This document shows, piece by piece, positions 10,589 to 53,766 of a DNA stretch of 56,418 bases. The notes beneath the pieces are model-generated. The model was not told where the DNA came from. It saw only the letters and a list, made by a program, of their open reading frames with translations, and did not search any database. Source of the DNA: a virus; the IMG/VR virus record IMGVR_UViG_3300048872_000176, positions 1-56,418 of that record. One strand, 5' to 3'. The position numbers were made by a program, and so were the translations under genes. Each line of letters starts with the position of its first letter. Position 1 is the stretch's first letter.

Positions 10589-11035
10589 ATGCGCAACGCG
10601 GAAGATATTCTCTCGTCCCTTAACGATGACCGACTGAAGATCATTGAGACAGGTTGCGTTGCTACTCGCAGTATCACTCGTTGGGTTTCGAATCATTCAG
10701 AGAGTGAATTCGTAAATGTTGATTTAGATTTTCCTCTTCAACTTGCTACGCACAAAGAACTGGAATGCGATGGGATCGCCCGGCACTGTACTTTTCTAAA
10801 TCAAGATCACGGGAAGTATCTTAGTACTCGCACTTGGGCAGATGTGATTTTTCTTAATCCTCCCGATCTTCAAAGTGGTGTAATGGAATTTCTATTAGCG
10901 GTTTCAACTGGAGCCCGATTAATCGTAATGAACGACTACCAGGCTCGAAGTGCTCTAGCAATCAAACGTGCCCGTGAAATTGGTTGGGAGTATGAATCTT
11001 CCGGTATGCAAAACATTTTAAAGCGGGTTAAGTAA
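10589..11035 (+). CDS. SAM-methyltransferase-like protein
   Basis: A 148-aa product. IIETGCVATRSITRWV resembles motif I of class I methyltransferases, EFVNVDLD matches the acidic post-motif II, and DVIFLNPPDLQSG resembles motif IV. It is shorter than most methyltransferases and lacks a clear full GxGxG, so activity is uncertain. It follows the cupin and its stop shares a base with the next ATG (TAATG). A role in modifying glycans or virion proteins is inferred from context. Confidence 0.6.
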   Translation: MRNAEDILSSLNDDRLKIIETGCVATRSITRWVSNHSESEFVNVDLDFPLQLATHKELECDGIARHCTFLNQDHGKYLSTRTWADVIFLNPPDLQSGVMEFLLAVSTGARLIVMNDYQARSALAIKRAREIGWEYESSGMQNILKRVK

Positions 11036-12225
11036 TGGAGGCGATGAGCCAAGAATATGCCCAGGCTAGAATTCCTGAGTTAGAAAGCATCGCGTTAGTT
11101 AGACCAACATCCATGTTGTTAGCCGATCTTGCTGGATGTTATTTTACTCTCGGCCAAACCGAACGTGCTCTTCCGTTGGCTCAAAAAGCTTGGGAGAAGA
11201 ATAAGAACTCCGGGATTGGAATGAATCTCGGCCTCATTTTAAAAGATTTAGGTCGTCATGATGAGGCATCTAAAGTTATTGAAGAAGCCTACTGGCTTAA
11301 TTCCGATGATGCTTATATTCGGTTAGGGTATGGGGAAGCTTTACTGAAAGCCGGACATTGGAAACAGGCATGGCCCGTTTACGATAACGCCCGCCCAACT
11401 CAGTTCGGTGCAGCATGTATGCTTCGGCTGCCTAGCAAGGTTCGTGAATGGGATGGAGAACCTCTTCCTGAAGGACACGAACTGATTGTCATAAATGAAG
11501 GCGGAACCGGAGACCGTTTTTCATACGCCCGGTATCTAAACAATCTTACTGTTCTTGGAATTAATTGGAAATTTTATCCGTTCGATGAATTGTTCAGTTT
11601 CTTTGAACGAATTTTTCCACGAACAAGATTGGTAAAAGATGGGGATGAAACAAACCCAACCCATTGGACAACCACCTTTTCGTTGCCCGCGAAACTTGAT
11701 GTAGGAGTGAGCGATGTTCCACCTCCACTTCCTCTGAATCCTAGCGAAAATGCTATTAAAAAATTCGCTTTACAGAAATCCGACAAAATGCCTATTGTCG
11801 GATTGTGCTATGAAGCGGCTGAGATGCACCAAGGGAATAGAAAAGTTCGCTCCCTAACCGAAGGTCAAGCCATGCGGTTGGTGTGCATGACCGGGGATAA
11901 AGTTCACTGGGTAAATTTGCAGCACGGTAAGATAATGCCTTTCCCTGTCTCAAATATAAACTTTGAATCGTGGGATGATACCGCAGGATTGATTCATAAT
12001 CTTGATGCCGTGGTTTCCGTCGATACCGGAGTCATGCACCTTGCAGGTGCTATGAGAAAACCAATGGCTGTTTTGCTCGGCGGTAATTCCTGCTGGAAGT
12101 TTTTACGTAAAGGAAAAAAACTCAATCTGTATCCATTCGCGACTTTTTATCGTAATCCAGATCGTGGTTTTGAAACAGCTATAAGTGAACTTGTCGCCGC
12201 AATACGCAATGGAACGGCTTGGTAA
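11035..12225 (+). CDS. TPR-GT9-like glycosyltransferase
   Basis: A 396-aa product. Residues about 10-120 form TPR-like helical pairs (LADLAGCYFTLGQTERALPL, GLILKDLGRHDEASKVIEEA). The C-terminal part has the GT-B fold signature of family 9: an N-terminal INEGGTGD loop near residue 151, and NLDAVVSVDTGVMHLAGAM (about 322-340), the nucleotide-sugar-binding motif of heptosyltransferases. The phage has a paralogue at 27405-28730. It starts by TAATG overlap and ends by TAATG overlap with another glycosyltransferase. Target glycan unknown. Confidence 0.8.
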   Translation: MEAMSQEYAQARIPELESIALVRPTSMLLADLAGCYFTLGQTERALPLAQKAWEKNKNSGIGMNLGLILKDLGRHDEASKVIEEAYWLNSDDAYIRLGYGEALLKAGHWKQAWPVYDNARPTQFGAACMLRLPSKVREWDGEPLPEGHELIVINEGGTGDRFSYARYLNNLTVLGINWKFYPFDELFSFFERIFPRTRLVKDGDETNPTHWTTTFSLPAKLDVGVSDVPPPLPLNPSENAIKKFALQKSDKMPIVGLCYEAAEMHQGNRKVRSLTEGQAMRLVCMTGDKVHWVNLQHGKIMPFPVSNINFESWDDTAGLIHNLDAVVSVDTGVMHLAGAMRKPMAVLLGGNSCWKFLRKGKKLNLYPFATFYRNPDRGFETAISELVAAIRNGTAW

Positions 12226-13106
12226 TGAAATCAGTAGTAATCGTTCCAGCTTATTTCCGGCCAGAGTTTCTTTATCTTTGTCTAGAATCTTTATCCGCAT
12301 GTCCTGAGATAACTGAGAAAGATATTTGGATTTGCCACGATCAGAAGTTTGGAGACACCACAAAATTTGCAGGGGAGTGGGAAGAAACTAGAGCAGTTAC
12401 AGATTATTGGAGTCGAGCTTTCGGAAATCGCCTTCGGTGCACTCTTCGCCCAGAGAACGGATTTTACGGAAACAGTTATAACGTTTTAGCTGCTTATTCG
12501 AAAGCCTTAGAAGAACAATACGAAAAAATTTATTTATTGGAAGATGATGTTTTAGTTTCTTCTGATTTTTTTAGATGGCATGATGCAGTACAGGCGGACG
12601 GAGATTATTTCTGTTCGGTAGCCGGACATTGCGAACGCAATATTGTTGTAGATGAAATAAACTCTTCAGAAGCGTATTTCAGAAGTGAACAATATGCTTC
12701 TCTTGGTGTTGCTTGGTCTAGAGAAAACCTAAGTCAAATTACCCACCATGCGGTTCGAGAATACTATCAAAACAACACTATCTATCTTTTGAAACAATTT
12801 CCGAAAAGCAAACTCGGAACCCAAATGATGGAACAGGATGGATTGATTCAACGGGTGATGGAACAGTCCCTTCAGCAAGCGGCTTGGCCACATATCCCTA
12901 GAGCATACCATGTCGGGGTGTTTGGGTATCATCGCGGAATCGGCCCCGAAAATATGAAGCAAGGCACGCTGTCCGAAAAAATAGAACAGTATCGCGTTGC
13001 GATCATGGACAAAGAGTGGATAAATAGAGTAGCTTATTTTCAAACAGACATCAAAATTCTTCCTAAAGAAATTCCGGGTTGGAATCGTTTAATCCTCACA
13101 AATTAG
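12225..13106 (+). CDS. GT-A glycosyltransferase
   Basis: The ATG at 12225 overlaps the preceding TAA by one base, giving 293 aa. VVIVPAYFRPEFLYLCLESL is the nucleotide-binding start of GT-A enzymes and KIYLLEDDVLVSSDFF holds the metal-binding EDD. The fold resembles family 2 and GnT-I-type enzymes. The central part (EQDGLIQRVMEQ) could hold the catalytic base. It likely adds a sugar to a host surface or virion target; the second fits, since virion genes follow directly. Confidence 0.8.
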   Translation: MKSVVIVPAYFRPEFLYLCLESLSACPEITEKDIWICHDQKFGDTTKFAGEWEETRAVTDYWSRAFGNRLRCTLRPENGFYGNSYNVLAAYSKALEEQYEKIYLLEDDVLVSSDFFRWHDAVQADGDYFCSVAGHCERNIVVDEINSSEAYFRSEQYASLGVAWSRENLSQITHHAVREYYQNNTIYLLKQFPKSKLGTQMMEQDGLIQRVMEQSLQQAAWPHIPRAYHVGVFGYHRGIGPENMKQGTLSEKIEQYRVAIMDKEWINRVAYFQTDIKILPKEIPGWNRLILTN

Positions 13107-13166
13107 CGCCTGCCTGTCAGCCGCCGTTTTCAAGAAACAATAAAGCAACATTCTAAAGGAAATATC

Positions 13167-13949
13167 ATGGAAATTCCAGCATTGAATTTGGTCGTTGTTG
13201 ACACGGCGCTCCACACTAATATTTTGGCTGCATATCAGGCTGCACAAGCAGCCCCTGGTGGGGCGGTTTGGATTCCGAATAGTTATGTCGGAACCGACAC
13301 AGTTCCTGTGAATCCGACTGTTCCTGTGTTTGATATGCGCAGTCAAGGAACTACGTATCTAGGTTCTTCTAGCTCTAACAATAACGTAGCAGCAACGGCT
13401 TCGGCTGCCGCGGCGGTTGTTGGTTCCACTGGTGGAACGTTCGTAACCACATTAAATCTTCCGGGTGGAAGTAAATTTAATGGTGTGCCTTTTAAAGTGA
13501 AAGCCGCAGGTTGGACTTCTTTCGGTGGCGGAACTTGGACAGCAACTATTGTTCCAGTTCTTTACGCGTCCGGGCTCGCTGGTTATACGGCGTCTGCTTC
13601 CGCTATTATTTTTACAGCCGCAGCCACGAACGTAACTATCGCCACTGCTCTTGCAGCTACTTTGAAATACGCAAATTGGGAAACCGAAACAGTTATTGAA
13701 GGTGATACTACGTCGGCTAAAATCACTGGACGGGTTAAAGGATCGATCAACAACGGAGCCGTAGCTTCGATTCCCGCGACCGCGGCGAACGGAACTTGGG
13801 ATGCTATTGCAAATCCTACCACTGTCGGGACATTGAATATGGCAGCAACCGTGCCTATTCAATTTTTGGCAGGAGTGATTCTCGGTGGGACACCCGATAC
13901 CGGGGCAGTCCAAACCAGTACTCTCACCTCTTTTTATATCCAATCTTAA
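13167..13949 (+). CDS. jelly-roll-like virion protein (paralogue 2 of 3)
   Basis: A 260-aa protein with AAGGA before the ATG. Residues 1-70 are an extra head. From about 90 on (GTFVTTLNLPGGSKFNGVPFKVKAAG...) the sequence is beta-rich and Thr/Ala-rich, with NWETETVIEGDTTSAKITGR and IQFLAGVILGG...SFYIQS. This order is shared with the next gene and 6433-7008. I infer a surface fibre or decoration protein, and a possible substrate of the neighbouring glycosyltransferases. Confidence 0.75.
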   Translation: MEIPALNLVVVDTALHTNILAAYQAAQAAPGGAVWIPNSYVGTDTVPVNPTVPVFDMRSQGTTYLGSSSSNNNVAATASAAAAVVGSTGGTFVTTLNLPGGSKFNGVPFKVKAAGWTSFGGGTWTATIVPVLYASGLAGYTASASAIIFTAAATNVTIATALAATLKYANWETETVIEGDTTSAKITGRVKGSINNGAVASIPATAANGTWDAIANPTTVGTLNMAATVPIQFLAGVILGGTPDTGAVQTSTLTSFYIQS

Positions 13950-14012
13950 TTTCTTCTCGCGCCCGCACAGCGTACGCACAGCAACACAAAAGAAACAAAA
14001 AGGAAAATAAAT

Positions 14013-14615
14013 ATGCAAGTTATTGCTCAAGCTCCCGCAGCGGCTAATATCACTGCTCTTAACGCTGGTGTGGCTACCGCTGCATTTACCGTTATCGCTG
14101 GTGAACCCGGCGCAGGTACACAGTGTAACCTAAACGTTCCTGGTTCAAATCGTCTGAACGGCCAGCCTTTCGTAGTTCGTGCCAGCGGGTTTCTTACTCT
14201 ACCTGCCGGAACATACACGTCCGCGGCGACCCCGCTTCAGTTCGTGTTGTTCGGTTCAAACACCGCATCTTTCTCTGTTTCGGTCGGTTCTGCTCTATTC
14301 TCTTCGACCGCATTGGCGATCTTTTCGGTCTCTTCTGCTACAGCGAAGACTTTCCCATGGGAAATTCAGGCAGAAATGGTGGGAGATAGTACTTCCGCTA
14401 TTATTACGGGCCAAGGTCGTGCAGTGTCTAGCAATCCGAACGGTGTTCAATTGGCAACTGCTCCGGTCGCGATTGGTACGAGTCCAGCAAGCGTCAACTT
14501 CGCTTCCGAGCCTCCTTTGCAGTTCTCGATTGGTATTACTACAGCGGCTGCAAACCTGTTGAGCATCGCAGGTGCGGTTACTGTTGGTCTCAGTTCTTTC
14601 CAACTCGAAGCGTAA
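14013..14615 (+). CDS. jelly-roll-like virion protein (paralogue 3 of 3)
   Basis: A 200-aa protein with AAGGAAAATA before the ATG. It aligns with the preceding protein over GTQCNLNVPGSNRLNGQPFVVRASG, FPWEIQAEMVGDSTSAIITGQ and LQFSIGITT...VGLSSFQLEA, and lacks that protein's N-terminal extension. Composition is rich in Ser, Ala and Thr. It is probably a trimeric or multimeric virion surface protein. Evidence is pattern-based only. Confidence 0.75.
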   Translation: MQVIAQAPAAANITALNAGVATAAFTVIAGEPGAGTQCNLNVPGSNRLNGQPFVVRASGFLTLPAGTYTSAATPLQFVLFGSNTASFSVSVGSALFSSTALAIFSVSSATAKTFPWEIQAEMVGDSTSAIITGQGRAVSSNPNGVQLATAPVAIGTSPASVNFASEPPLQFSIGITTAAANLLSIAGAVTVGLSSFQLEA

Positions 14616-14647
14616 GAAGTTCCATAAAACAAAAACAACTAACAAGG

Positions 14648-15370
14648 ATGGGGAGTTCGAAAGGACTCCCTGTTCACTTTCCACACATGCTTAAAATTCT
14701 TATTGCGATAAAATGCTGTCATACAAGACAGGAATTTGCAGAAGCATCTCGTCAGACGTGGGTTAGAAACATCCACGGCATGAATTACAGAATTTTTTAT
14801 GGACATGGACAGCACGAACTTAAACCCGACGAAGTTCAGTTAGATGTGCCCGATGGGTATGACGATCTCGCTAGTAAAATATACGAAATTTTTTCTTGGG
14901 CTCTGAAACATGAATATGATTATGTGCTTCAGGTAGATGATGACACGTACGTACGCCCTGAAAAACTTCTACAGAGTAATTTCCAGCAATACGATTTTGT
15001 CGCAGGTTCATCATTCGGTGTGGATGAATGCAACCGTCTTTTTCAGTACGTAGCGGGTCAAAGTTCCACAGGTCCCGGTTTTTGGCTGTCCAAAAAAGCC
15101 ATGAACGTTGTTGTCAATTCTTTACCTCCTAGCCATGGTCAGGCTGATGAACCGTGGATAGGGAAAGTTCTGAACCACCATGGAATCAGAGTTTACAGAA
15201 CAACTTCTATGGGGTGTTACGGAAATCTTCCCCACAGTGGAATAAAAGAACTTTGTCTTAACTGTTGGCTTCCGGAAACAGAGGATATTATCGCGGAATG
15301 GGAATACAACCCCGAACAAATGATTGCTGTTCATAAGCAATGGGAAACAGGAACTCGTACTCTTCCTTAA
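14648..15370 (+). CDS. galactosyltransferase-like (GT31-type) glycosyltransferase
   Basis: The frame gives 240 aa from ATG 14648; the domain itself begins at the internal ATG 14687 (LKILIAIKCCHTRQEFAEASRQTW), and neither start has a good ribosome site. CCHTRQEFAEASRQTWVRN and YVLQVDDDTYVRPEKLL (metal-binding DDD) match the beta-1,3-galactosyltransferase/Fringe family, as do GPGFWLSKKAM and DEPWIGKVLNHHGI. This is mostly a eukaryotic-type family, also found in large phages and viruses. A small GGGAGT/ACTCCC hairpin covers the first codons. Confidence 0.75.
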   Translation: MGSSKGLPVHFPHMLKILIAIKCCHTRQEFAEASRQTWVRNIHGMNYRIFYGHGQHELKPDEVQLDVPDGYDDLASKIYEIFSWALKHEYDYVLQVDDDTYVRPEKLLQSNFQQYDFVAGSSFGVDECNRLFQYVAGQSSTGPGFWLSKKAMNVVVNSLPPSHGQADEPWIGKVLNHHGIRVYRTTSMGCYGNLPHSGIKELCLNCWLPETEDIIAEWEYNPEQMIAVHKQWETGTRTLP

Positions 15371-24633: not shown

Positions 24634-25254
24634 ATGAAAGCATATGCAGAAGAAATAAAACAAGAAGCACTAAGACTTTTACGTGAAAATCGCGGCCCGA
24701 AAGATATTGCTAAAAGATTGAATATTTCAATCGGTGCAGTTGAGGATTGGGCAAACGATTGGCGTAAAGACGGCTCTCTTAAAAGTTATAAGAGACCAGG
24801 CATGGAGTTTACAAACCGAGCGAAAGAGATTTCGAACGGTTACTACAAGAGTATTCGCAAACGCTATTTAAGTATGAAGTGGATAGACCATTTAGCGAAG
24901 CGCGAATGTGGGTTCAAAAGCCCAGTGGAAGCGATTCCATACTATCTTGATGAAAATAAAACTCCAAGAGTTTGTGCGTATTGTGGACGACAACCCTCAG
25001 ATGGAAAAGTTTGGGGATTAGATCGCCTCGATTCTTCTTTAGGCCACGTACCGGGGAACTTAGTTCCTTGCTGTGGCTTTCACAAAGAAGGAATGCAACT
25101 TTCATGTCAAGCTAGTAAGTCGAAGTACTCTCTATTTTCTTGGATGGAAATGAATATTTCTCGGTATTATGGGAGACCAGCTTCCACTCTCGAAGTAGAA
25201 GGACGTATTCGATTGGTTCAAGAACTAGCGAAAAAATTATCTCAAACACATTGA
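24634..25254 (+). CDS. intron-encoded HNH homing endonuclease
   Basis: A 206-aa product. Residues 1-50 form a helix-turn-helix (ALRLLRENRGPKDIAKRLNI). The nuclease part has CAYCGRQPSDGKVWGLDRLDSSLGHVPGNLVPCCGFHKEG (zinc Cys pairs around an H-N-H-like core with D, N and H). It would spread the intron into intron-less capsid alleles. The stop codon ends 5 nt before the 3' splice site, so it is wholly intronic. No Shine-Dalgarno; see the promoter just upstream. Confidence 0.85.
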   Translation: MKAYAEEIKQEALRLLRENRGPKDIAKRLNISIGAVEDWANDWRKDGSLKSYKRPGMEFTNRAKEISNGYYKSIRKRYLSMKWIDHLAKRECGFKSPVEAIPYYLDENKTPRVCAYCGRQPSDGKVWGLDRLDSSLGHVPGNLVPCCGFHKEGMQLSCQASKSKYSLFSWMEMNISRYYGRPASTLEVEGRIRLVQELAKKLSQTH

Positions 25255-25451: not shown

Positions 25452-25494
25452 GACGATGGGGTGATTTTCTAGAGTCACCCCTGACATCGTTTTA
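25452..25494. terminator. terminator after the capsid gene
   Basis: An ACGAT...GGGGTGA stem (25452-25464) pairs with TCACCCC...ATCGT (25475-25490) around a 10-nt loop and a short bulge, and is followed by TTTTAATT. It closes the capsid transcript and may also serve the convergent endonuclease gene. Confidence 0.6.
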
Positions 25495-25791
25495 ATTCAA
25501 ATATTTTTTTATGTTTTCAACAATCCAGGGCATTCGTTCGATGTTTCCGAGGATGGCGTTACACCAAAAACAAAGTAGTCCTCGGAATCTTTTTGTGCGG
25601 GGTTTGTGATCTGAAACAAGAATCATTCGGCGGGAGCAAATCTTACATCTCCCCTGCTGGTCTTTTTCAGCGATTAAATATCGCTTTAACCCAATCTGTC
25701 CGTATTTTTGCTCTATCCGATGGAGATATTTATCCCTTTCTAGGGCGAACAAAGCAGGTTCGTCCTGCCATTTTAAGAAAAAGTATTTCAT
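25492..25791 (-). CDS. endonuclease VII-like homing endonuclease
   Basis: A 99-aa leftward product. CKICSRRMILVSDHKPRTKRFRGLLCFWCNAILG (about 49-82) is the zinc-bound beta-beta-alpha-metal core of the T4 endonuclease VII family (CxxC, DH, RGLLCxxCN). The N-terminal half is helical. It is antisense within the head operon, has its own TTGACA promoter and no ribosome site, so a leaderless message is inferred. It probably acts as a freestanding mobile endonuclease whose target lies near the intron-bearing capsid gene. Confidence 0.85.
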   Translation of the reverse strand: MKYFFLKWQDEPALFALERDKYLHRIEQKYGQIGLKRYLIAEKDQQGRCKICSRRMILVSDHKPRTKRFRGLLCFWCNAILGNIERMPWIVENIKKYLN

Positions 25792-27404: not shown

Positions 27405-28730
27405 ATGCAAGTGGCCTACAATCGTGCTCAAGTCGGAACCCGAGCGGCTGAATGGATCAACCCTAAACAGGGGGAGATTCTTATTCCGGATCGGGCAACC
27501 GCTTATAAGCACATCGAATCGTTCGAGCGCCAGCTTCTCGGGATTATGTCGAAACACAAACGTGCGGAACTTTTGATTGCCTGTGCGATGGTTTACGAAG
27601 CTATTGGCGATCAAAGAATGCTTCCCGCGGCGGAAGACGCCTTTCGGGTTACGAAAACAAGCACGACGGCCCATCTCATGGCCGTGGCTCACCATCACTT
27701 CGGACGAATCCAAGAAGCATGTAACTTTTACACTCTGGCTTACCGTTTTCCGCACGAAGATGGCTTTAACGTCGATTTAGCCTACACTCAAGCCCTACTC
27801 TTCCAAGGAAAGTGGTCTGAAGCGCACAGGATGACCCTAAGGCTCAAAAAGCGCATGGTGTATGCGGCTTACCTGCCCGAGTGGAATAAGCTTCCCTGCG
27901 ACCGCCTGAGCGTGATTTCCGAAGGTGGGTTCGGAGACTTAATCCAATGTGGTCGGTGGTTGCCCATCCTTCAGCAGATGTGCAAAAAGGTTACAGTCTA
28001 TCTTCCGCCGTTCTTTTTTGATGCTGGGTTCATAGACCTTTGGCGAAAACAACCCTGGTGTCCTGAAATCAAACTCCTGACGGAGTGTCCGCAAGACGTG
28101 CCCGCAGTCGGCTTCTTCGATCTACCCGCGGTGTTTGATGTTCAGCCGGATGAGCTTCCTCCGAGTCTGACTTTTAAAGCCGACCCTGTTTTGTCCGAAA
28201 AATACCGCTTTGTTCGGACGATGCGTTTTCCGAACGCTGATTTTCCAACCATCGGTTTTTGCGGAGTCGCTCGGCAACAAGAAGTTCCACTCGTGCCTGA
28301 CGGAATTTATAGAGCCTTGACGGAAGACCAGTCGTTGAAAATTCTCCGCGCCGGATTCGAACATGTTCGCTTTGTAAACCTCCAAAAAGATTTAGACATG
28401 GACCAGTTTCCCGGAATGCTTTTAGGTCGTCCGGAAATAAAATCCTGGGAAGACACCGCAGCGATTATCGAAAATCTAGACGCGATAATTACGGTGGACA
28501 CCGCGGTCGCACATCTTGCCGCCGCGATGGGCAAACCCACGTACATACTTTTATCCGGCGCAAGTGATTGGAAATTCGGTATCAGCGGAGAAACTTGTCC
28601 GTGGTATCCAAGCATGAAATTAATTAGAAACGATGGCTGGGGTTTTGACAACGCCGTCGAAAAGGTTATCAAGCTAATCGAAAATGGCGAATTCAACCAC
28701 CACCCTCGCGAAAATTGTACAGTTTGCTAA
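27405..28730 (+). CDS. TPR-GT9-like glycosyltransferase, paralogue
   Basis: A 441-aa paralogue of 11035-12225. The N-terminal ~150 residues form TPR-like helices (LLIACAMVYEAIGDQRMLPA, HHFGRIQEACNFYTLAY). The catalytic part has VISEGGFGDLIQCGRWLPIL (nucleotide-side loop) and NLDAIITVDTAVAHLAAAMG (about 373-392), the family 9 motif. It likely transfers a sugar to a virion or host glycan. It is preceded by a pseudoknot leader and overlaps the next gene by 47 nt. Confidence 0.8.
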   Translation: MQVAYNRAQVGTRAAEWINPKQGEILIPDRATAYKHIESFERQLLGIMSKHKRAELLIACAMVYEAIGDQRMLPAAEDAFRVTKTSTTAHLMAVAHHHFGRIQEACNFYTLAYRFPHEDGFNVDLAYTQALLFQGKWSEAHRMTLRLKKRMVYAAYLPEWNKLPCDRLSVISEGGFGDLIQCGRWLPILQQMCKKVTVYLPPFFFDAGFIDLWRKQPWCPEIKLLTECPQDVPAVGFFDLPAVFDVQPDELPPSLTFKADPVLSEKYRFVRTMRFPNADFPTIGFCGVARQQEVPLVPDGIYRALTEDQSLKILRAGFEHVRFVNLQKDLDMDQFPGMLLGRPEIKSWEDTAAIIENLDAIITVDTAVAHLAAAMGKPTYILLSGASDWKFGISGETCPWYPSMKLIRNDGWGFDNAVEKVIKLIENGEFNHHPRENCTVC

Positions 28731-34500: not shown

Positions 34501-35746
34501 CACTGCGTATAACCCAGGTCAGTTTTGGACTTTTACTTCCCCAGTAACCCGACTGGTGCCGACTACGGTAGGGCTGCTGGTTTGGACTACTTCCGATCTT
34601 GGAATTATTCAAGGCGGGCCGCAAATCACGACGCTGTTCAATAATATTTATGTGCCCGGCCTCGGGCTCACTTCTTTCAACGCACTAACCGTAAATGGTG
34701 GGCTCATTGATTTGTTCACTGCGGATAGTCAAGTAGTACGATTCGATCCCAACATGGGTGTGTCGAAAATCGGTGTGCCTATTGGAGACCAGTTTTTTAA
34801 ATACGGCGCACAGACTACGACTTTTTCGCCAGCAACTGCTTATGTTACTTTCCACACCCAGGGTTTAAACGATGAGGCTTTATTTGTAGCGGATGGTTCA
34901 ACAGGCTGGTTTCGTGGTGTACCAAACCTCGCTCCGGACGCTGCGATCTCTGGTCCTGTGTGGAGTCCGAAAGCCACGGTTGTTGGCGGCTGTAAAGCTA
35001 TTCAATCCCTTGAAGTTCAACCTGGCCAACACGCTTTGCTGATCGGAGCTACGTCCGCGAATCATCCGGTGCTCGTGCGAGATTCGACGTACACCACCTT
35101 CACGGACAATTCTTCAGCTTATGCCGCGAATTTTATTTTCGGTTCTATGGTGTTGGCGAATCCAGGGCAGCTTGCGGAACTCGGTTTTATCACATGTGAA
35201 TTCATTAAAACAGGAACCTCCCCAATCTTGTCTGTCATGCTGGATGAACTCGCGGACTCCGTGATGGTAATTTCCGCGGCACTGAAGAGTGGAAACAACG
35301 TCATTTACACTTATACTCTGACCACTGGTTATGCTGTAGTACCTGGTTCGGGTGTGACAATCACAGGAATGGCGGATGCTGCGAACAACGGAACCTTTAC
35401 TGTTACTGCGGTCGGAGCGGGAACCTTCACCGTTGTGAACGCCGCGGGTGTGACTCGTGCGGTTCAAACCGGAGCGGGAACTTTATTCGAAAGTTTGTCC
35501 GGGTATGTTTCCGCCGTCACTAGTTTGCCACCGCAGGATGCACCAACCGTTTATGGTTTGCAGTTCACTCCTGCGAGTACATACGCGAACCGTTATTACT
35601 TCGCACAAAGTGTGAATGGAGTTGTTCCTCCACAAGGCGTGGATTGCCGTCACATGCAAGTGAAACTGGATTTCGGCTCAAGCGATATCATTCAAAACGA
35701 GCTTTTAACAATGAGTATTTTCGGGAAACATTGGCAGGAAGTCTAG
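31544..35746 (+). CDS. large tail hub/stabilisation-type protein, 1400 aa
   Basis: The ATG overlaps the preceding TAA by one base. The start (FFLGLWTNRNPLRAPTGVI, NNVEISNRLTICRRPGNTAG) resembles podovirus DNA-stabilisation/tail hub proteins of the P22 gp10 kind. The protein contains repeated beta modules: two or three S-x-V-A-T-x-T-x...D-T-G-x-A units and several W-x-A-x-T-x-Y...D-G-T-V-T-W units typical of carbohydrate-binding tail modules. It is all beta-rich, with no membrane segment. It is the largest protein of the window and probably the tail hub. Confidence 0.65.
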   Translation: MANALQAVGSHGDHDSGWAPIFTNRFFLGLWTNRNPLRAPTGVIYENYYRLGGTDALIGGNNVEISNRLTICRRPGNTAGLTNFVSSSNIPDIPDSFYSFHEIGGTIRVFADTPTAPYLIGGYTNGAGTASQGIIPIFTKGAGVVQSFFQGIGQSLYFSDTAEQEKWLDFGSGNPGNSFSVITATSLTSNVATITAINNFAIGQTVVISQTTNNAGTFNTTGIITAANSSQFQFALVHANISPASDTGFANACWNLGIIAPTIAPTLNIVASGAAAVAWQASTYFSTMGLVVDGNNNVQELISVNNTGTNTTPFGTSGDGQPQWSATPGATTSDNTVTWTNWGPIVLWTAHTTYSNHRTGGDLTNPAYVYDPVSDTIWGNDSAGGASGISGAAKPAFAKSKKFIADGSVNSWINVSGVGIAANQGTIFFWQPNHLYSPSFSSTNRNYNAAIIEPIALPAPSNQVIFFQVATTGGTSGGSGTPPFQNLGAATQTYDNDLIWLNLGSATWVALTNYTAWTGTQPVFSVIQDTNGNMQVCVVSGQSGATQAHQQWQANHAYSNTNTIVDTNGRLQTVTSAGTSGAVKTLTTSDITSGVATYTTSTNHGYAVGQQVTVVTSSHDSAFNVTNAIITSLPTAAKFTINLAHDDIVSAADTGTSYAGPTWAPSGTTTDGGVTWTAGSTTTGWGVNYGDTTLDGTAKWVCVGPPMAWAASTLYHLPPPGFEPPSPSQPFGGSEVISTGFVQATIRSGKSAASLPTFSNTIGNFTIDNPGASEIIWTNAAAFSQNSISWTKGYGYVYAYKARGTFDQYAPLPLGGGLNPQGSGLGTNPAWSAGSGGLTPTGSADGSVSTASPSVQMAVGINSGSVVNISGLGSTDPQVDTVSIFRTFDGGATFFWLTDIKNPQSIGGIAQPWTFQDFLPDIATDLFLGLNTLVLAPINHSNDPPLAGMINLTQYFGRIFYSVGATVYCSQGPNVGGPSQPPGNGYTAYNPGQFWTFTSPVTRLVPTTVGLLVWTTSDLGIIQGGPQITTLFNNIYVPGLGLTSFNALTVNGGLIDLFTADSQVVRFDPNMGVSKIGVPIGDQFFKYGAQTTTFSPATAYVTFHTQGLNDEALFVADGSTGWFRGVPNLAPDAAISGPVWSPKATVVGGCKAIQSLEVQPGQHALLIGATSANHPVLVRDSTYTTFTDNSSAYAANFIFGSMVLANPGQLAELGFITCEFIKTGTSPILSVMLDELADSVMVISAALKSGNNVIYTYTLTTGYAVVPGSGVTITGMADAANNGTFTVTAVGAGTFTVVNAAGVTRAVQTGAGTLFESLSGYVSAVTSLPPQDAPTVYGLQFTPASTYANRYYFAQSVNGVVPPQGVDCRHMQVKLDFGSSDIIQNELLTMSIFGKHWQEV

Positions 35747-35913
35747 CATGCGGACACCCATTTACGCCAACCCACGGGATGTCTTCCGCGGTATAACTGA
35801 AGCAACCGAAAGCATTCTTTGCACTGAGTTGCGATTTTAGATTTCCGCCCGCCACAGCGACATTCGTCAGTCATGTCAGGTCGGAGTTCATACGTTCTCA
35901 TTGTGGTTTTCAC
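35743..35913 (-). CDS. small zinc-ribbon protein, 56 aa
   Basis: The leftward GTG at 35913 follows a strong AAGGAGGT. The product, MKTTMRTYELRPDMTDECRC..., has a CRCGGRKSK...CKECF zinc ribbon and a basic C-terminus (RGRHPVGWRKW). It overlaps the end of the hub gene by 4 nt, antisense. It has its own promoter at 35937-35964. DNA binding is likely; function unknown. It may be a moron or a reduced mobile endonuclease. Confidence 0.7.
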   Translation of the reverse strand: MKTTMRTYELRPDMTDECRCGGRKSKIATQCKECFRLLQLYRGRHPVGWRKWVSAC

Positions 35914-40666: not shown

Positions 40667-42800
40667 AACATCAGCAGCAATCGCCGGGGGTAGTAATATT
40701 CGCCCGAACGTATCGTTCGCTTCCGAACAACCTGCTCCCGCTGCGCCAGAGATGGTTTCTACTGCGGTCGCACCAGCGGCTCCTGCTGCGGCTGAACCAC
40801 CTCCTCCGGTTGCTACATCAAAAAATCCAGCCCTCCATAATCTGATTGGTTCGGTTCTAGGTGGCCTGGCTGGGCATCCACCTCCTAGTTATTCGTACGA
40901 TGACAACGGAAAGCTAATTATTACTGCCGCTCCTCCACAAAGTTCCGCGGACAAAATTCGCAGAATCGCTGCGAACGCACTGACTGGTCTCGCGGCTGGC
41001 GGCGGTCCTGAAAAGAAAAGCGGCCTTGCGAACGCTCTTTCTGGATTTGGTGAAGGCGCGGATGCCGTGCAGAAAAAAACGGCTGGTGATGATGTTTTGA
41101 AACGTGCTCAAGCTAAAGAGAATTTCGAGCAAGAACAACAAACAAAACTCCGTCAACATGAAATCGCCCGCTCGAATGCTTTGACACTTTCCACTTATTA
41201 CGGCGCTAAAAAGGCTGCAAATGATCTCGATCCGCACTTCAAACAAAATGAAAGTCTGTTTGATGCAGTGAAGGCTTCACCTGAACTCGGGGCGCACGCT
41301 ACGGAAATGTCTGATTCACAACTCGAACAAGAAGTCGGAAAAAATCCTGAATTTGCAACTACTCATATTGTGAAACCGCTTGGCTGGGCTCCGGAAGTAG
41401 ATGAAAAAGGCCAGCAAGTAATGGTGAATGGCGAGCCTAAGTTTTACATGCGCATGGCCGTCATTGATGGCACGAAAGACGGTAAGGTTCAAGTTACGCC
41501 CGAAATGGCTGCGGATTTCAAAAATTATGGGCCGATGGCTCGCATTCCTAACGCGGGCGACATCAAAGCAGGTGACTCGTACGATCTTGCCCAACTCTTG
41601 CCTGCAATGAATAAAGTAGAGGAGCAGCGTAAAGTAGTAATGGAAGGCTGGCAAAAATCCGAACTCGGCTGGATTACGGACAAAGACGGAAACGAAGTTC
41701 CGGTTGAAACCAACAAAATGATGCCTCCTGACATGCAGGGACGGACTCGTCCGCTCACCGTCACTCCAATGGCGATGAAATCAGAAGAAGCCAAGTCCGA
41801 TCAGCAAGAAGCTGCGGCTGAAAAAGATCGTGCGGACGCGAAGAAAGCTCTGGCTGAAGCCGCCCTCACAGCATCTTTAGTTGGTGCGAATGGTGGCCAA
41901 AGTATTCCCGCTTACATGGATGCGATTAGCAAGCTTCCTCAAACTTCACAAACTATTTTGCGTAACGTTTCTCCTGCGGAACAACTTGCCCTTCTGAAAG
42001 TCGCGAACGGTGACGCCGATCTCAGCAAATTGTTTCCTACCCGCGTAACTAAAGGTAGCGGACAACGTGATGCTCGCCACGCCGCGAATTTTGTGTCTTT
42101 GTTGAATCCTCAGTGGACTGAACAACTCTACGCCACTAAACAAAAGGCTTTGTCCGACTTTTCAACGGGCGAAGACGGAAAAGCAATCGCTTCGTTCAAC
42201 CAGTTCCTCGTTCACGCAGACGATGCCCGTATTGGTTCTGAACGTCTACAACGTACGAATAGTCCTTGGCTCAACGAACCTATCAACAAAATTCGCAGCA
42301 AGGGTATGGGCGATCCCGGTGTTCCCGGTTTGATGACGGATATTATGGCTGCTCGTTCTGAGTGGCAGAACTTTATCAAAAACGGACACGCTTCAGACGT
42401 AGCTGATACAGAGGCTTCCCGGCAAATCATGAGTGATACTTCTTCGCCCGCACAGGTGATGAAGGCACTTCAAGAAATGGGTAAGCAAGCGGTTGGCCGT
42501 CTCGACCAAATCGATGCGAAGTGGCGTCGGACTTGGGGCGGACATTATCCTGGAATCGTGTCGGATTCCGGACGAACCGCTGCGAATAATCTTGGTCTCG
42601 GGGACCAAATTAAAATGTATCCTTCTGAGTCTGGTGCGTTCGGTGGGGTTCAACCCAACAGTGGACAAATGCAGTCCCCGGACAATCCGGCTCAACGTCC
42701 GCAGGGCGCGACAGGTATTGCTCCTGGTAGCGACGGAAAAATGCACTATCACGACATCAAAGGTAACGATCTAGGATTAGCGCCAGCGAGCGGACAATAA
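40647..42800 (+). CDS. internal virion-type protein, 717 aa
   Basis: A long helical protein with AGGAG before the ATG. The N-terminus is Pro/Ala-rich (PAAPEMVSTAVAPAAPAAAE). Then come glycine-rich helices (NLIGSVLGGLAGHPPP, NALTGLAAGGG) and charged coiled-coil regions (KENFEQEQQTKLRQHEIARS, DQQEAAAEKDRADAKKALAE). With the proteins on either side it fits an ejection-protein set of a short-tailed phage. No enzyme domain is seen. Confidence 0.65.
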   Translation: MPEVDPKTSAAIAGGSNIRPNVSFASEQPAPAAPEMVSTAVAPAAPAAAEPPPPVATSKNPALHNLIGSVLGGLAGHPPPSYSYDDNGKLIITAAPPQSSADKIRRIAANALTGLAAGGGPEKKSGLANALSGFGEGADAVQKKTAGDDVLKRAQAKENFEQEQQTKLRQHEIARSNALTLSTYYGAKKAANDLDPHFKQNESLFDAVKASPELGAHATEMSDSQLEQEVGKNPEFATTHIVKPLGWAPEVDEKGQQVMVNGEPKFYMRMAVIDGTKDGKVQVTPEMAADFKNYGPMARIPNAGDIKAGDSYDLAQLLPAMNKVEEQRKVVMEGWQKSELGWITDKDGNEVPVETNKMMPPDMQGRTRPLTVTPMAMKSEEAKSDQQEAAAEKDRADAKKALAEAALTASLVGANGGQSIPAYMDAISKLPQTSQTILRNVSPAEQLALLKVANGDADLSKLFPTRVTKGSGQRDARHAANFVSLLNPQWTEQLYATKQKALSDFSTGEDGKAIASFNQFLVHADDARIGSERLQRTNSPWLNEPINKIRSKGMGDPGVPGLMTDIMAARSEWQNFIKNGHASDVADTEASRQIMSDTSSPAQVMKALQEMGKQAVGRLDQIDAKWRRTWGGHYPGIVSDSGRTAANNLGLGDQIKMYPSESGAFGGVQPNSGQMQSPDNPAQRPQGATGIAPGSDGKMHYHDIKGNDLGLAPASGQ

Positions 42801-44533
42801 TGGCCGACGAACAAGTTCAGGATCAACAGCAACCACCTGTAGCGGATGCTGCAAGCGCGTCTCAAATCAAACTTGATCTGAGTAAATCCCAGCCTTTGCC
42901 GCCTGCGGTTACTCTAGATATGAGTAAGTCCAAGCCTCTTACGGATGCTAATCCTGCGGCTCAACCTGGCGCGATTCAATCTAAAAAAGGTGGACCTGTT
43001 CAGAATGTGAACAACATGCCGCTTCCGAATCGTGCGGACGAAGTAGCAGCCGCTCAAGCCGCGGGTCACGCTACCGCTTCAGTTACTCCGGGGGGCGAAT
43101 TAGCAGTAGGCGCTATAAAAGGTTTGTACGAAACAGGGTTGGGTGGAGCGAAATTACTTTCTAAAGCTGCGAACGCACTCGGTCTCCACACGGACGAAAC
43201 TGATGCACTCGCTCATGATAATGTTTCTGCGTTTTCCGAAGCGATGACAAAACCCGAAGGTGCTGGCCAAACTATTGGTTCGCTCGGAGAAGGAATTGCT
43301 GAGTGGGCAGGCGGGGATGAAGTTTTGAAGGGCCTCACTAAACTCGCGAAAGTGCCCGAAGCTGTTCTGGCGTTAGCTGAAAAATATCCGAAGATTGCTA
43401 AACTTCTGACTGCTGGCGCTAAAGGTGCTGCGGTTGGTGGAGTGCAAGGGGCGCTTAAAGAAGGCTCCGTTGAGGGAGCCGAACACGGCGCTGAAGGCGG
43501 TGCGATTGGTGGAGCCGCGGGTGAATTGACGGGAATGGTTGCAAAGCCTATTCTAAAAGCTGCTGGGATCGGTACGTCCGCCGAAGAAGATATTATGCGG
43601 GCCGCACAACCCGGAAAACGAAATGATAGATTCCTAAAGGATTGGGCTACCGCGAAAGATAGAATTGTTGAGGAAGTCGAACAAAGCGGGAAATTCAAGG
43701 ATATGGGTGAGGCTGCGGATCGCATTGGCGATGTGCGCCGCGCAATCTGGACTGACGAAGTGATGCCCGTAATTGAAAAACACGCTGACGAAGTTTTCGA
43801 TACTACCGGAGTCGCGAACAGAGTTCGCAAACTAGCTGATTCGCCTGCCCTCCAAAAGAATTTTCCGGAAGATGCTAAGTTTCTGCATGACTTCGCGGAT
43901 AAATATACGAGTGGGACTCCGCTTTTTAGCGGCAAAAAAACTGTAGCGGAAGCCGAAAAAGAAATTGAACTCTACAATTCCAAGCTTGCGAACGAGGGCT
44001 ATTGGAAAAAAACTCCGAAAGAACGCGCTGTCATGGAGAAAGCAAATCCTAAAATTGCTGCGTGGCGGGCTGCTTCGGATGAGATTCGGGATGGACTGTA
44101 TAAACATCTTGGAAAAACTGAAGAAGGTATTGCTGCTCTTAAAAATGAATACGGAGCGGTTGGTAACATCGAAAACGAAATTCGTGGCCAGGTGAATGTA
44201 TCAGGTCGGCAACGTCCGTTGAGTTTGAAACAAATTGTCGGGTTAGCGAGCGGGCATCCTATCGGAATTGCTTCGGCTTTTCTCGACAAAATCTATAACG
44301 CGCCGGAAGAACTTCTAAACCGTGCGGTCTCGAAATCCGCTACTCCTGGTCCGGTTAAAAACGTGGTTCAAAATGCAGTGAAATCCGGAACAGAATCTGC
44401 GGGCACAGCAGGTGCCATCGCAGGGTCAAACCTCATCCGCTTCATTGCCAGCGACGGGTCTGTTCACTCAGTGAACGCCGACCAACTGGATGCCGCGAAA
44501 CAAATTGATCCGGGGCTTAAAGTTCAGGAGTAA
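42800..44533 (+). CDS. internal virion-type protein, 577 aa
   Basis: The ATG overlaps the previous TAA by one base. The N-terminus is Pro/Ala/Lys-rich with a repeated LDLSKSQPLP/LDMSKSKPL motif. Residues about 205-260 are glycine-zipper hydrophobic (KGAAVGGVQGALKEG, GGAIGGAAGELTGM), a membrane-insertion hallmark of ejection proteins. The C-terminal half is helical. Its last 17 nt overlap the antisense xylanase gene. Confidence 0.65.
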   Translation: MADEQVQDQQQPPVADAASASQIKLDLSKSQPLPPAVTLDMSKSKPLTDANPAAQPGAIQSKKGGPVQNVNNMPLPNRADEVAAAQAAGHATASVTPGGELAVGAIKGLYETGLGGAKLLSKAANALGLHTDETDALAHDNVSAFSEAMTKPEGAGQTIGSLGEGIAEWAGGDEVLKGLTKLAKVPEAVLALAEKYPKIAKLLTAGAKGAAVGGVQGALKEGSVEGAEHGAEGGAIGGAAGELTGMVAKPILKAAGIGTSAEEDIMRAAQPGKRNDRFLKDWATAKDRIVEEVEQSGKFKDMGEAADRIGDVRRAIWTDEVMPVIEKHADEVFDTTGVANRVRKLADSPALQKNFPEDAKFLHDFADKYTSGTPLFSGKKTVAEAEKEIELYNSKLANEGYWKKTPKERAVMEKANPKIAAWRAASDEIRDGLYKHLGKTEEGIAALKNEYGAVGNIENEIRGQVNVSGRQRPLSLKQIVGLASGHPIGIASAFLDKIYNAPEELLNRAVSKSATPGPVKNVVQNAVKSGTESAGTAGAIAGSNLIRFIASDGSVHSVNADQLDAAKQIDPGLKVQE

Positions 44534-45581
44534 GCGCACTCTTAACTGCGACTAACGCGGGTTTCGGGGTGTAACTTGCATCGAAAAGATTAGCATCTTC
44601 GTAACGTCCAGCGGTGTTTCCTGGAATCCAAGAATGCTTATCCGTAAAACCCCACACTTGGATCGCCGTACAACCTTGTGTTTCCAGACAAGCTTTGAAG
44701 ATAGATTGATAAACTCGTGCTTGGCGGGCATATCCAAAAACAGCGTGTTTAGGGATGGCAACGTCAAGTTCAGTGATGTGAACTTCTACTCCAAGCGCAA
44801 CGAAACGTTCCATGTTTGCTCGAAAAGATTGGATATTCAAACCCTCCAGCGTAAGATGAGTCTGAAATCCAACACCGTCAATTGGAATTCCGCGGCGTTT
44901 GAAATCCTTAACCATCGCATAAATCGCATCTGACTTTGCATTTATTTCTTCCGCTCCGAAATCATTGTAAAAAAGTTTCGCGGATGCATCCGATTCACGA
45001 GCCCATCTAAAAGCCATTTCGATATACGCGGTTCCAGGACCAACATTGATTCCCGGTCTGTTATACCAATGAGAGTTTTCCAGACTCCCGTTGCTTGCGA
45101 AAGCTTCATTAACAACATCCCAAGCAAATACGCGCCCGCGATAGTGACTCACAACAGTTCGGATGTGATCGTGAAGAACTTGGTCCATCTTTAAATCCGC
45201 CGCGCCAAGCCATTTCGGAAGCGCAAGACGCCAGAGCAGGCAGTGACCGCGGGTTTTCATTCCATGTTTTTCCGCGAAATTAAGAAGATCATCACCAGCG
45301 CGAAAATCGTAGATGTTTTTTGCAGGGTGAATTGTCGCCCACTTCATCGAATTTTCGGCTTCGACCATATCAAATTCCTGGACCAGAGTGAAGATGTATT
45401 GTGATTCACTAAGAAGCGCCGGGTCTACAGCCGTACCGATCAAAACGCTGTGCCCACGCATCGGAGATTCCTTTACAATTCGATCCTGATAAGCGGAATA
45501 ACAGATAAGTAGGAAAATTTCAACTAAGAGAATAACCGCAACGATGGGGCTTGCGAATTGCACTATCCGGTCGGTTTTCAT
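44517..45581 (-). CDS. GH10 endo-1,4-beta-xylanase, membrane-anchored
   Basis: A 354-aa leftward enzyme. Residues 8-30 are a signal-anchor (FASPIVAVILLVEIFLLIC). The GH10 barrel follows: ENSMKWATIHP, HCLLW (His113), AWDVVNEAF with acid/base Glu159, FYNDFG, FQTHL, HITELDV with nucleophile Glu271, and VWGFTDKHSW. All catalytic landmarks are intact, so it should cleave beta-1,4-xylan or a related polymer. It is antisense among virion genes and has its own TTGACA promoter, the mark of a moron. It may act on a host or environmental polysaccharide. Confidence 0.92.
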   Translation of the reverse strand: MKTDRIVQFASPIVAVILLVEIFLLICYSAYQDRIVKESPMRGHSVLIGTAVDPALLSESQYIFTLVQEFDMVEAENSMKWATIHPAKNIYDFRAGDDLLNFAEKHGMKTRGHCLLWRLALPKWLGAADLKMDQVLHDHIRTVVSHYRGRVFAWDVVNEAFASNGSLENSHWYNRPGINVGPGTAYIEMAFRWARESDASAKLFYNDFGAEEINAKSDAIYAMVKDFKRRGIPIDGVGFQTHLTLEGLNIQSFRANMERFVALGVEVHITELDVAIPKHAVFGYARQARVYQSIFKACLETQGCTAIQVWGFTDKHSWIPGNTAGRYEDANLFDASYTPKPALVAVKSALTPEL

Positions 45582-45605
45582 AACTTCTTCTTATCCTCTA
45601 TGTTT

Positions 45606-45634
45606 TTAATACCACAGAATTGCTAGGTTGTCAA
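45606..45634 (-). promoter_or_regulatory. leftward promoter TTGACA-N17-TATTAA for the xylanase
   Basis: Minus strand TTGACA (45634-45629), a 17-bp spacer and TATTAA (45611-45606). A leader with GAGGA leads to the ATG at 45581. Confidence 0.7.
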
Positions 45635-45641
45635 GAGAAAA

Positions 45642-46868
45642 ATGCCTGATGAATCTTTAGTCCAAACCGTCAAGAGAAACCTGACTCCTGACCCTGTTAA
45701 CTCAAATGCTGCGAAGGGCCCCGGCCATGAGTTTGATTCAGGCTCCCCGCAGGCTGAAGGCGAAGCGCAATATAAAGAAAAATTCGGATCGCCCCAGGAA
45801 ATAGCCTACGGAAAGCTGAAGAATTGGTTGTCCGAACATGAACAACATTTTTCGGACAAAGTTTTGAAACCTTTTCGTGCCGGGCTTGACAATATGGCCG
45901 AAGACTTGCAAACGGCTGCGGAAACAGGGCATACTAAATCAGGCGGGCAAATGAATCCCGTTACTCGGGCGCTCACGGGAGCCGCTGGTGAGGCTTTGAA
46001 AATGGTTCCGGTCGGGAAAGATGTGAAGGAATCCGCTGCTTTGATGGTGCCTATGGATTTTGGAAGCTTAGAAGGTCACACTCTAATCGAACGCGCCCCG
46101 AAAATTCTTCACGAACCCGGCGAAGCAACAAACATTGTTCGTCTTGCACAAGGCGATAAAACTCATGGTATGGTAAAGTACACGATGGGTGAAAACAATG
46201 AAGCAGCGATCACCGCGGCTAATCTCAACCCGGAAATGCGGGGTAAAGGTTTTGGCAAGAAAATGTATGAAGAAGCCGCCCAGCAAGCGAAGGCTAAAGG
46301 CGCAACCGCTATCACTTCCGATCTTGCTGGCACCGATTCGTACGATTCAGGACGAGTTTGGGATAGTTTGATGAAAGACCATCCGGACGAAATTACTAAG
46401 ATTGCGTCCAAGCCGGGCTCTCCGGGTTATCGGTGGGAGTTGAATTCACCCAAAGCGTCGCCTAAAGACGTGATTGAAAAAGCCGGACTCGTCTACAAAG
46501 GTGAAGTTTCAAAAGGTACAGGAGTTCATCAATTTGAGCATCCTGGCCACCCTGGAAAAACCGCTGCGTTAAAGGAATCTGACATCACACCCGAAGGTGT
46601 GAAAAATCACATGGATTCTAAGCTGAAGGATTTCCGCGAAGCTGAGGCTAAGAAAAAAGCCGTGGAGAAAGGCTCGGAAGGCCTTCAGAAAAACATAGAT
46701 TTTAAAGCAACCGCCAAAGACGCGAAGTTGCCGGAATCCGACAAGAAAACGCTAACGCCTGCTTATCTTTTAAAGCACGAAAATCATTTCGATCCGAACG
46801 TAGTGACGCCGGAACAACTGATCGACAAAGGCGTTTTAACGGGTATGAAACCAATGGTTAAGACGTAA
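45642..46868 (+). CDS. virion-type protein with internal GNAT domain
   Basis: A 408-aa protein. The N-terminal ~150 residues are helical and charged as in the preceding internal proteins. Residues about 165-260 contain a GNAT acyltransferase core: AAITAANLNPEMRGKGFGKK (R-G-K-G-F-G-K acyl-CoA loop) and MYEEAAQQAKAKGATAITSD. The C-terminal third is Lys/Glu-rich. Such enzymes embedded in ejected phage proteins can modify host proteins early in infection; that is inference here. Confidence 0.7.
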   Translation: MPDESLVQTVKRNLTPDPVNSNAAKGPGHEFDSGSPQAEGEAQYKEKFGSPQEIAYGKLKNWLSEHEQHFSDKVLKPFRAGLDNMAEDLQTAAETGHTKSGGQMNPVTRALTGAAGEALKMVPVGKDVKESAALMVPMDFGSLEGHTLIERAPKILHEPGEATNIVRLAQGDKTHGMVKYTMGENNEAAITAANLNPEMRGKGFGKKMYEEAAQQAKAKGATAITSDLAGTDSYDSGRVWDSLMKDHPDEITKIASKPGSPGYRWELNSPKASPKDVIEKAGLVYKGEVSKGTGVHQFEHPGHPGKTAALKESDITPEGVKNHMDSKLKDFREAEAKKKAVEKGSEGLQKNIDFKATAKDAKLPESDKKTLTPAYLLKHENHFDPNVVTPEQLIDKGVLTGMKPMVKT

Positions 46869-52945: not shown

Positions 52946-53766
52946 AATCTCCTCAACAGAAATGGAATAGTGCCCATCCCGAAGCGATGGCTACTAATTC
53001 TAAAATATGGCGGCAACGGCACCCTGAGAAGGTTGTTGTTCAAAATCGGAAAAAAGATCGCCGTTTTCGAAAATATGGAATTGCAGCATCGGAATTTTAT
53101 GCTGCGTTGATTCGTCAACACTATAAATGTTTGGGCTGTCTGTGCGAGATAAACGAAAAAACCGCCAATATCGATCACAAACATGATGGGTCTAATCCTT
53201 TCCGTGGATTACTGTGTCGAAACTGCAACTGGGCTCTTGGAATGGTTTACGAAAACTCCAGTACGCTACGACGACTCATGGCTTATTTAGACTACGACCG
53301 TAAAAAAACCCACGTATATTTGATCGGCGCTCTAAAAAACAAACGAGTTCCTGAAATTGGAAATCACATTCGAGCAGAAGGTTTTGATGTTATGGACGAA
53401 TGGTTTACGCCGGGAGAGTTTGCTGACACCAATTGGCAGGAATATGAGAAACAACGCGGACGTACCTATTCAGAAGCGTTGCGGGGCCGCGCTGCAACGA
53501 ACATTTTTCTTTTTGACCAATCATACCTAGACCTTTCCGATATAGTTATTTTGGTGGCCCCCGCAGGCAAATCTGCGATGATCGAACTTGGGTATGCCAA
53601 GGGTCGAGGAAAGAAAACCTGCATTTTGTTAGATGGGATCGACCCTGACCGTTACGACATCATGCCAAATTTTGCAGATGAGATTTTTATGACTGAAGAC
53701 GCTTTGATTAAGCATTTAAAAGAGTTGACAAATACTGGAGTCTATGGTATAATCCCAATCACATGA
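52942..53766 (+). CDS. endonuclease VII fused to deoxyribosyltransferase-like domain
   Basis: A 274-aa fusion. Residues about 45-120 are an endonuclease VII core (YKCLGCLCEINE, NIDHKHDGSNPFRGLLCRNCNWALG). From 123 on is a nucleoside 2-deoxyribosyltransferase-like domain (THVYLIGALKNKRVPEIGNH, YSEALRGRAATNIFLFDQSY, LSDIVILVAPAGKSAMIELG with a Glu at the nucleophile-like place). It starts by ATGA overlap with thyX, and the next gene encodes another transferase of this type. The endonuclease probably inserted in frame at the enzyme's N-terminus. Confidence 0.8.
   Translation: MKSPQQKWNSAHPEAMATNSKIWRQRHPEKVVVQNRKKDRRFRKYGIAASEFYAALIRQHYKCLGCLCEINEKTANIDHKHDGSNPFRGLLCRNCNWALGMVYENSSTLRRLMAYLDYDRKKTHVYLIGALKNKRVPEIGNHIRAEGFDVMDEWFTPGEFADTNWQEYEKQRGRTYSEALRGRAATNIFLFDQSYLDLSDIVILVAPAGKSAMIELGYAKGRGKKTCILLDGIDPDRYDIMPNFADEIFMTEDALIKHLKELTNTGVYGIIPIT
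53725..53753 (+). promoter_or_regulatory. consensus promoter TTGACA-N17-TATAAT, near-leaderless
   Basis: A perfect sigma-70 consensus: TTGACA (53725-53730), a 17-bp spacer and TATAAT (53748-53753). The ATG at 53763 is nine bases on, leaving a leader of about 0-3 nt. It lies inside the 3' end of the fusion gene. Confidence 0.8.

Follow-up and report, generated by a model that had tools for sequence, protein, structure and literature searches.

The window analysed here, i.e., a phage fragment of 56,418 bp that makes up one IMG/VR virus record, carries a GH10 endo-xylanase-like gene on its minus strand (44517..45581; 354 aa, ATG start). We consider it likely that we are dealing with an auxiliary gene of the moron type, i.e., a GH10 gene of old Acidobacteriota origin that was inserted in antisense orientation between two late genes of a Tunturi_3-like acidobacterial podovirus and has a host-type promoter of its own. 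An exported xylanase is the likeliest reading of the product, for which we infer expression, export, xylanase activity and benefit. A previous annotation made from the letters only (the sequence-only reading) had placed the feature at 44517-45634. The ORF accounts for 44517-45581, while the stretch up to 45634 is leader and promoter.

The protein comprises an N-terminal hydrophobic helix (residues 4-37) and a catalytic domain (residues 45-350). A Pfam search matches residues 45-348 to PF00331 (Glyco_hydro_10; E=3e-97) and covers profile positions 10-310 of 311, i.e., the full-length domain. The closest solved structures by sequence are those of Thermotoga xylanase 10B (Xyn10B; 1vbr and 3niy, E ~8e-87). 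Both H113-CLL-W117 and W310-GFTDKHS-W318 are found in the ORF, and the residues E76, K80, H113, W117, N158, E159, Y205, N206, Q240, H242, E271, W310 and W318 are invariant across the 15 GH10s of our alignment (A1). The two catalytic glutamates are part of an NE motif (N158-E159) and a TE motif (T270-E271). On the minus strand, the Glu159 codon (GAA, within WDVVNE) is at 45105..45107 and the Glu271 codon (within HITELD; computed from the ORF start at 45581) at 44769..44771. They align to E134 and E240 of 1vbr, which we take to be acid/base and nucleophile, respectively. The AlphaFold2 model computed from the alignment of the 15 GH10s (mean pLDDT 86.9, pTM 0.82) is a (beta/alpha)8 barrel. When compared with the PDB using Foldseek, its best matches are GH10 xylanases (top four with rmsd 1.5-1.6 Å and 44-46% identity; E 7e-38 and rmsd 1.6 Å for 3niy). 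BFVD provides no near structural match, the best ones being GH5 at 15% identity. That is, the intact GH10 with Glu159, Glu271, HCLLW and WGFTDKHSW of the sequence-only reading is borne out by Pfam, A1, the 1vbr alignment and the model.

A GH10 phylogeny had been suggested as a check to find the donor lineage, and it points to Acidobacteriota. In a scan with one genome per species, the best 22 loci listed are all from Acidobacteriota MAGs (45-53% identity, tblastn), ahead of Streptomyces. Within a tree of 87 rows, the phage GH10 is placed in a clade that otherwise consists of Acidobacteriota only (support 100/91), as sister to the main acidobacterial group. Its branch is long (0.99), and a second tree of 34 rows with the longest branches pruned gives the same placement (support 94/88). 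We regard these supports as good, but not decisive given the long branch. Three further loci (L167-L169) that are 27-29% identical to the phage GH10 were left out of both trees. A Streptomyces or Bacillota donor is ruled out by both trees, and the other viral GH10s included (L082/L083, L084, L085) group elsewhere, which excludes a phage-only clade. The acidobacterial grouping along with the intact active site thus differs from the old, phage-only and non-catalytic clade that would have spoken against the proposed enzyme. Grouping with Acidobacteriota GH10s also implies that the gene is by origin a cellular metabolic gene, as expected for an auxiliary metabolic gene. We read it as probably borrowed long ago from Acidobacteriota, with an active site that appears to have been kept since the transfer, across the long branch.

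The relatives from this clade are secreted endo-1,4-beta-xylanases (e.g., L002 from Chloracidobacterium sp. UBA6041 and L006-L009 from Acidobacteriaceae MAGs) that share fold and catalytic residues with the phage protein and are 48-54% identical to it in the aligned part. They differ from it in two respects, i.e., they have shorter, ordinary signal peptides in place of the longer and more hydrophobic phage helix, and their GC3 is 0.59-0.90, compared to 0.41 for the phage gene (GC 0.46). In codon usage, GH10 is nearer to the phage average than any of the 35 other phage genes compared. Phage-like codon usage and low GC3 suggest that the transfer is old, or went via another phage, and argue against contamination. 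As the window stems from a metagenomic virus record, its GH10 could in principle be a bacterial gene joined by mistake to phage sequence. Beside the codon usage, the phage genes on both sides, the exact gene-boundary junctions and a coding overlap of 17 bp contradict such an assembly chimera, and no other bacterial metabolic genes are seen around GH10. We consider contamination or misassembly nearly refuted on these grounds and extremely improbable.

The window encodes a terminase, a portal and an adaptor of SU10 type (PF23899 and PF24175), a UvsX recombinase, an exonuclease, a thymidylate synthase and a DNA polymerase, the latter cut by the end of the stretch. No lysogeny gene was recognised in the scanned proteins of the 56 kb. 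Among isolates, Tunturiibacter phage Tunturi_3 (PP885686; PMC11924767) is the best relative; it is a podovirus of 97.6 kb with an acidobacterial host. Both phages have terminase (30% identity), portal (37%), capsid protein (64%), tail and recombinase genes (UvsX, 63%) in common, with homologous terminase, portal and capsid protein genes in the same order. The overall identity is low (30-64%), and GH10 has no match in Tunturi_3. Tunturi_3 is the nearest relative for portal, capsid and terminase, and an acidobacterial host is therefore probable here as well, an assignment we infer from the phage relatives together with the donor lineage.

Next, we consider the insertion site, for which two related virus records of about 95 kb are informative: G008 (95.5 kb; G012 is identical to it where compared) and G414 (94.4 kb). 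These are the only relatives that cover the site. Relative to them, the window carries 1108 bp of additional DNA (44534..45641), whose first base directly follows the stop codon (TAA) of the upstream gene and whose last base directly precedes the start codon (ATG) of the downstream one; over 17 bp, the 3' end of GH10 is shared with the upstream gene. The left neighbour (42800..44533, plus strand; 577 aa) is conserved in the related phages (57-59% and 40%). The right neighbour (45642..46868, plus strand; 408 aa) has a GNAT-like middle domain. GH10 is absent from both G008 and G414. In G008, whose late module is collinear with the window and whose capsid protein is 97% identical, the homologues of the flanking genes abut directly (...GTGCCG TAA ATG GCC...), and in G414 (capsid protein 93%, left flanking gene 40%) they overlap as TAATG. 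As a side observation, the G414 homologue of the right neighbour, a putative injected protein with an acetyltransferase-like middle, aligns only at 3-161 and 275-336. This alignment at both ends only points to a possible domain swap.

Both neighbours are plus-strand genes of the late module and are located between tail-module homologues and a homologue of Tunturi_3 gp26, which is annotated as endolysin. We found no annotated homologue for either of them and no convincing homology to Tunturi_3 gp24/gp25. The antisense position within the late module supports the earlier placement of GH10 among internal virion genes, with a virion role of the two neighbours being putative. The absence of GH10 from G008 and G414 indirectly suggests that it is dispensable for phage replication, as auxiliary metabolic genes are.

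In lambdoid phages, morons are extra genes that bring their own promoter and separate two genes which are neighbours in relatives. GH10 resembles them in its extra-gene placement, a candidate promoter is correctly placed in front of it, and the earlier assignment as a moron is supported by the missing gene and the abutting neighbours in two related phages. In contrast to lambdoid morons, no terminator-like site was found just 3' of the GH10 stop, and the odd base composition that is a common but not strict feature of morons is lacking, as the codon usage is phage-like. A further difference is that no lysogeny gene was recognised in the scanned proteins.

The promoter-like site (45606..45634, minus strand) is of sigma-70 type and matches 10/12 consensus bases. 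It is composed of TTGACA (45634-45629), a spacer of 17 nt and TATTAA (45611-45606), and lies 25 nt before the GH10 ATG. The leader in between (45582..45605, minus strand), read directly from the sequence, contains a purine-rich putative ribosome-binding stretch (AGAGGATAAGAAGAAG). The sequence agrees exactly with the promoter facing GH10 that had been proposed. The exact pattern TTGACA-N17-TATTAA occurs once in the window, and equally good sites are found 14 times when considering both strands (112.8 kb of strand), i.e., about 0.007 times per 60-nt leader, such that the position of the site is unlikely to be due to chance. A stricter promoter scan omits it because its -10 box does not have the conserved final T. 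We thus treat it as a candidate promoter with an imperfect -10 box. Elsewhere in the window, a perfect sigma-70 consensus (TTGACA-N17-TATAAT; 53725-53753, plus strand) is located close to where an endonuclease VII-like gene ends.

In the late module, GH10 is accompanied by two further ORFs that are antisense as well and have promoter-like sites. The first is an endonuclease VII-like gene (25492-25791, minus strand; promoter-like site 25826-25798) that is absent at that site in G008. It is part of about 1.25 kb of inserted DNA that separates the capsid gene from the late gene following it and is missing in G008 as a whole; this insert also encodes an HTH protein (24634-25254, plus strand), one part of which is Cys-rich and HNH-like. 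The second is a Cys-rich ORF of 56 aa (35743-35913, minus strand; promoter-like site 35964-35937) between two tail-module genes; at this site, the antisense ORF of G008 is a different one (309 aa; L106:17617-18546). Two more antisense genes lie between late genes of G008 (L106:4949-6685 and L106:9973-10383, both minus strand), an AAA ATPase (PF00004) among them. Given these ORFs, phages of this group seem to carry antisense cargo between their late genes habitually, a pattern drawn from two phages. The window also encodes glycosyltransferase-like genes at 11035-15370 and 27405-28730 (both plus strand; GT9 with TPR, GT2-like, galactosyltransferase-like). The gene at 11035 and the G008 counterpart of that at 27405 match at 29%, which places one of a related pair inside the late module.

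Such varied cargo also fits a passenger, i.e., a host gene captured intact by illegitimate recombination without useful expression, and so do the absence of GH10 from the related phages and the single copy of this phage GH10 that is known. A neutral passenger would be expected to decay, whereas GH10 combines phage-adapted codon usage with a whole active site kept over a long branch. Furthermore, the insert is placed cleanly between stop and start codons and has a promoter-like leader. We consider a mere passenger improbable. At the other end, the antisense promoter-gene units might be interchangeable cassettes that form a cargo system of acidobacterial phages, here loaded with an inner-membrane-anchored xylanase for periplasmic xylo-oligosaccharide processing during phage growth. 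We put this forward as a speculation with a rather small chance of being correct.

For the favoured moron-type auxiliary gene, we envisage the following route. Host sigma-70-type polymerase would read GH10 from TTGACA-N17-TATTAA, independently of the plus-strand late operon. The N-terminal helix would then route the protein through Sec and either be cleaved or remain in the inner membrane as an anchor (N-in, C-out). Residues 4-37 are predicted as one long helix in the AlphaFold2 model, and the hydrophobicity over 19 residues (KD19) reaches 2.72 at residue 9, compared to 1.1-2.2 for the signal peptides of eight acidobacterial homologues. Both predictions agree with the N-terminal anchor of the sequence-only reading, and we regard a membrane anchor as likely. 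A lipoprotein is ruled out, since LLIC before the only cysteine of the hydrophobic helix does not fit a lipobox, and a signal-peptidase site read by eye (CYS/A) is a weak candidate.

Acidobacteriota have two membranes. In an acidobacterial host, an inner-membrane anchor would thus let GH10 face the periplasm, a consequence that was absent from the earlier reasoning and that weakens the simple view of xylan being digested outside. That is, an anchored periplasmic enzyme could not directly contact polymeric xylan, which counts against our favoured reading. The catalytic barrel would end in the periplasm, or outside after release, and would use the retaining two-step mechanism, with E159 as acid/base and E271 as nucleophile, to cut internal beta-1,4-xylosidic bonds. 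The resulting xylo-oligosaccharides might be taken in or released locally and feed the infected cell, or the neighbourhood after lysis; this is the least certain step. The substrate of the enzyme may be periplasmic xylo-oligosaccharides, the polymer once the enzyme is released, or a barrier polysaccharide.

The last of these leads to a different role, namely a depolymerase made during infection that is displayed or released and cuts an exopolysaccharide or plant-matrix barrier for progeny spread, or that blocks or clears a receptor glycan. The position in the late module near the gp26 (endolysin) homologue is in line with this, as is the case of L083, an unrelated temperate siphophage of low GC (with tape measure, Dit and integrase) in which a GH10 (L083:9959-11056) is flanked by tail spike and endolysin. 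Exported enzymes seem to recur as well: the lysis region of G008 encodes a trypsin-like protease (PF13365; L104:8622-9395, plus strand) with a signal-peptide-like N-terminus, for which no counterpart is seen in the window. On the other hand, GH10 is antisense with its own promoter-like site, i.e., outside the late operon, and its closest relatives are ordinary secreted xylanases for plant polymers. It has no tail, virion or binding domain and no PHROG match, which rules out a tail or virion enzyme. We also know of no xylan-like exopolysaccharide of the host. Altogether, a depolymerase seems unlikely to us.

Other phage GH10s were sought by IMG/VR pattern scans of low sensitivity, which found few. 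Exact peptide patterns gave no close relative of the phage GH10 in viral_contigs, and a phage collection provided GH10-like matches in nine unannotated human-gut contigs at 25-35% identity. One of the loci left out of the trees (L169) is a terminase-bearing phage or prophage whose GH10 (29% identical; L169:7938-9026) adjoins a lipase gene. Since the GH10s of L082/L083, L084 and L085 are placed apart from that of the window, phages probably acquired GH10 more than once.

A literature phrase search for phage or viral xylanases found no paper. Nevertheless, related genes are known from soil and rumen viruses: 14 conservative cases of soil viral glycoside hydrolases with a GH5 endomannanase (Stordalen) proven active (PMC6786970), a mangrove viral gene list that includes a GH10 xylanase with an assigned Firmicutes host (PMC6460857), the active soil viral chitosanase V-Csn (PMC9485262) and GH5/GH9 cellulases of rumen viruses that were shown to be active (PMC10465536). 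For tundra vOTUs, two glycoside hydrolases for xyloglucan oligomers are reported with no mention of GH10 or xylanase (PMC11924767). Like the gene studied here, the former encode plant- or biopolymer hydrolases in phage genomic context, several of which proved active. Ours differs in being a GH10 of acidobacterial ancestry (in contrast to the Firmicutes host of the mangrove xylanase) with two exact empty sites and an antisense orientation with its own promoter-like site. Given the soil-virus cases (PMC6460857, PMC6786970) and the unrelated GH10s in other phages, the claim that plant-polymer hydrolases are rare in phages was overstated. Intact catalytic residues, anchor-like N-terminus, promoter-like sequence and moron status all stand. 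As this kind of gene is already known from soil viruses, what we add is a clear further example of a viral helper gene, not the first.

The present case, a xylanase gene that is intact, adapted in codon usage and acidobacterial by ancestry, with its insertion site mapped exactly, is better supported than most auxiliary-gene calls from metagenomes. In acid soils and peat, Acidobacteriota rank among the main degraders of polysaccharides, and only a small number of phages are known for them. The phage GH10 provides a testable link between phage infection and the breakdown of plant fibre. If the cassette-cargo reading were true, it would mean that viruses take over the feeding on plant polymers in one of the major decomposer phyla of soil.
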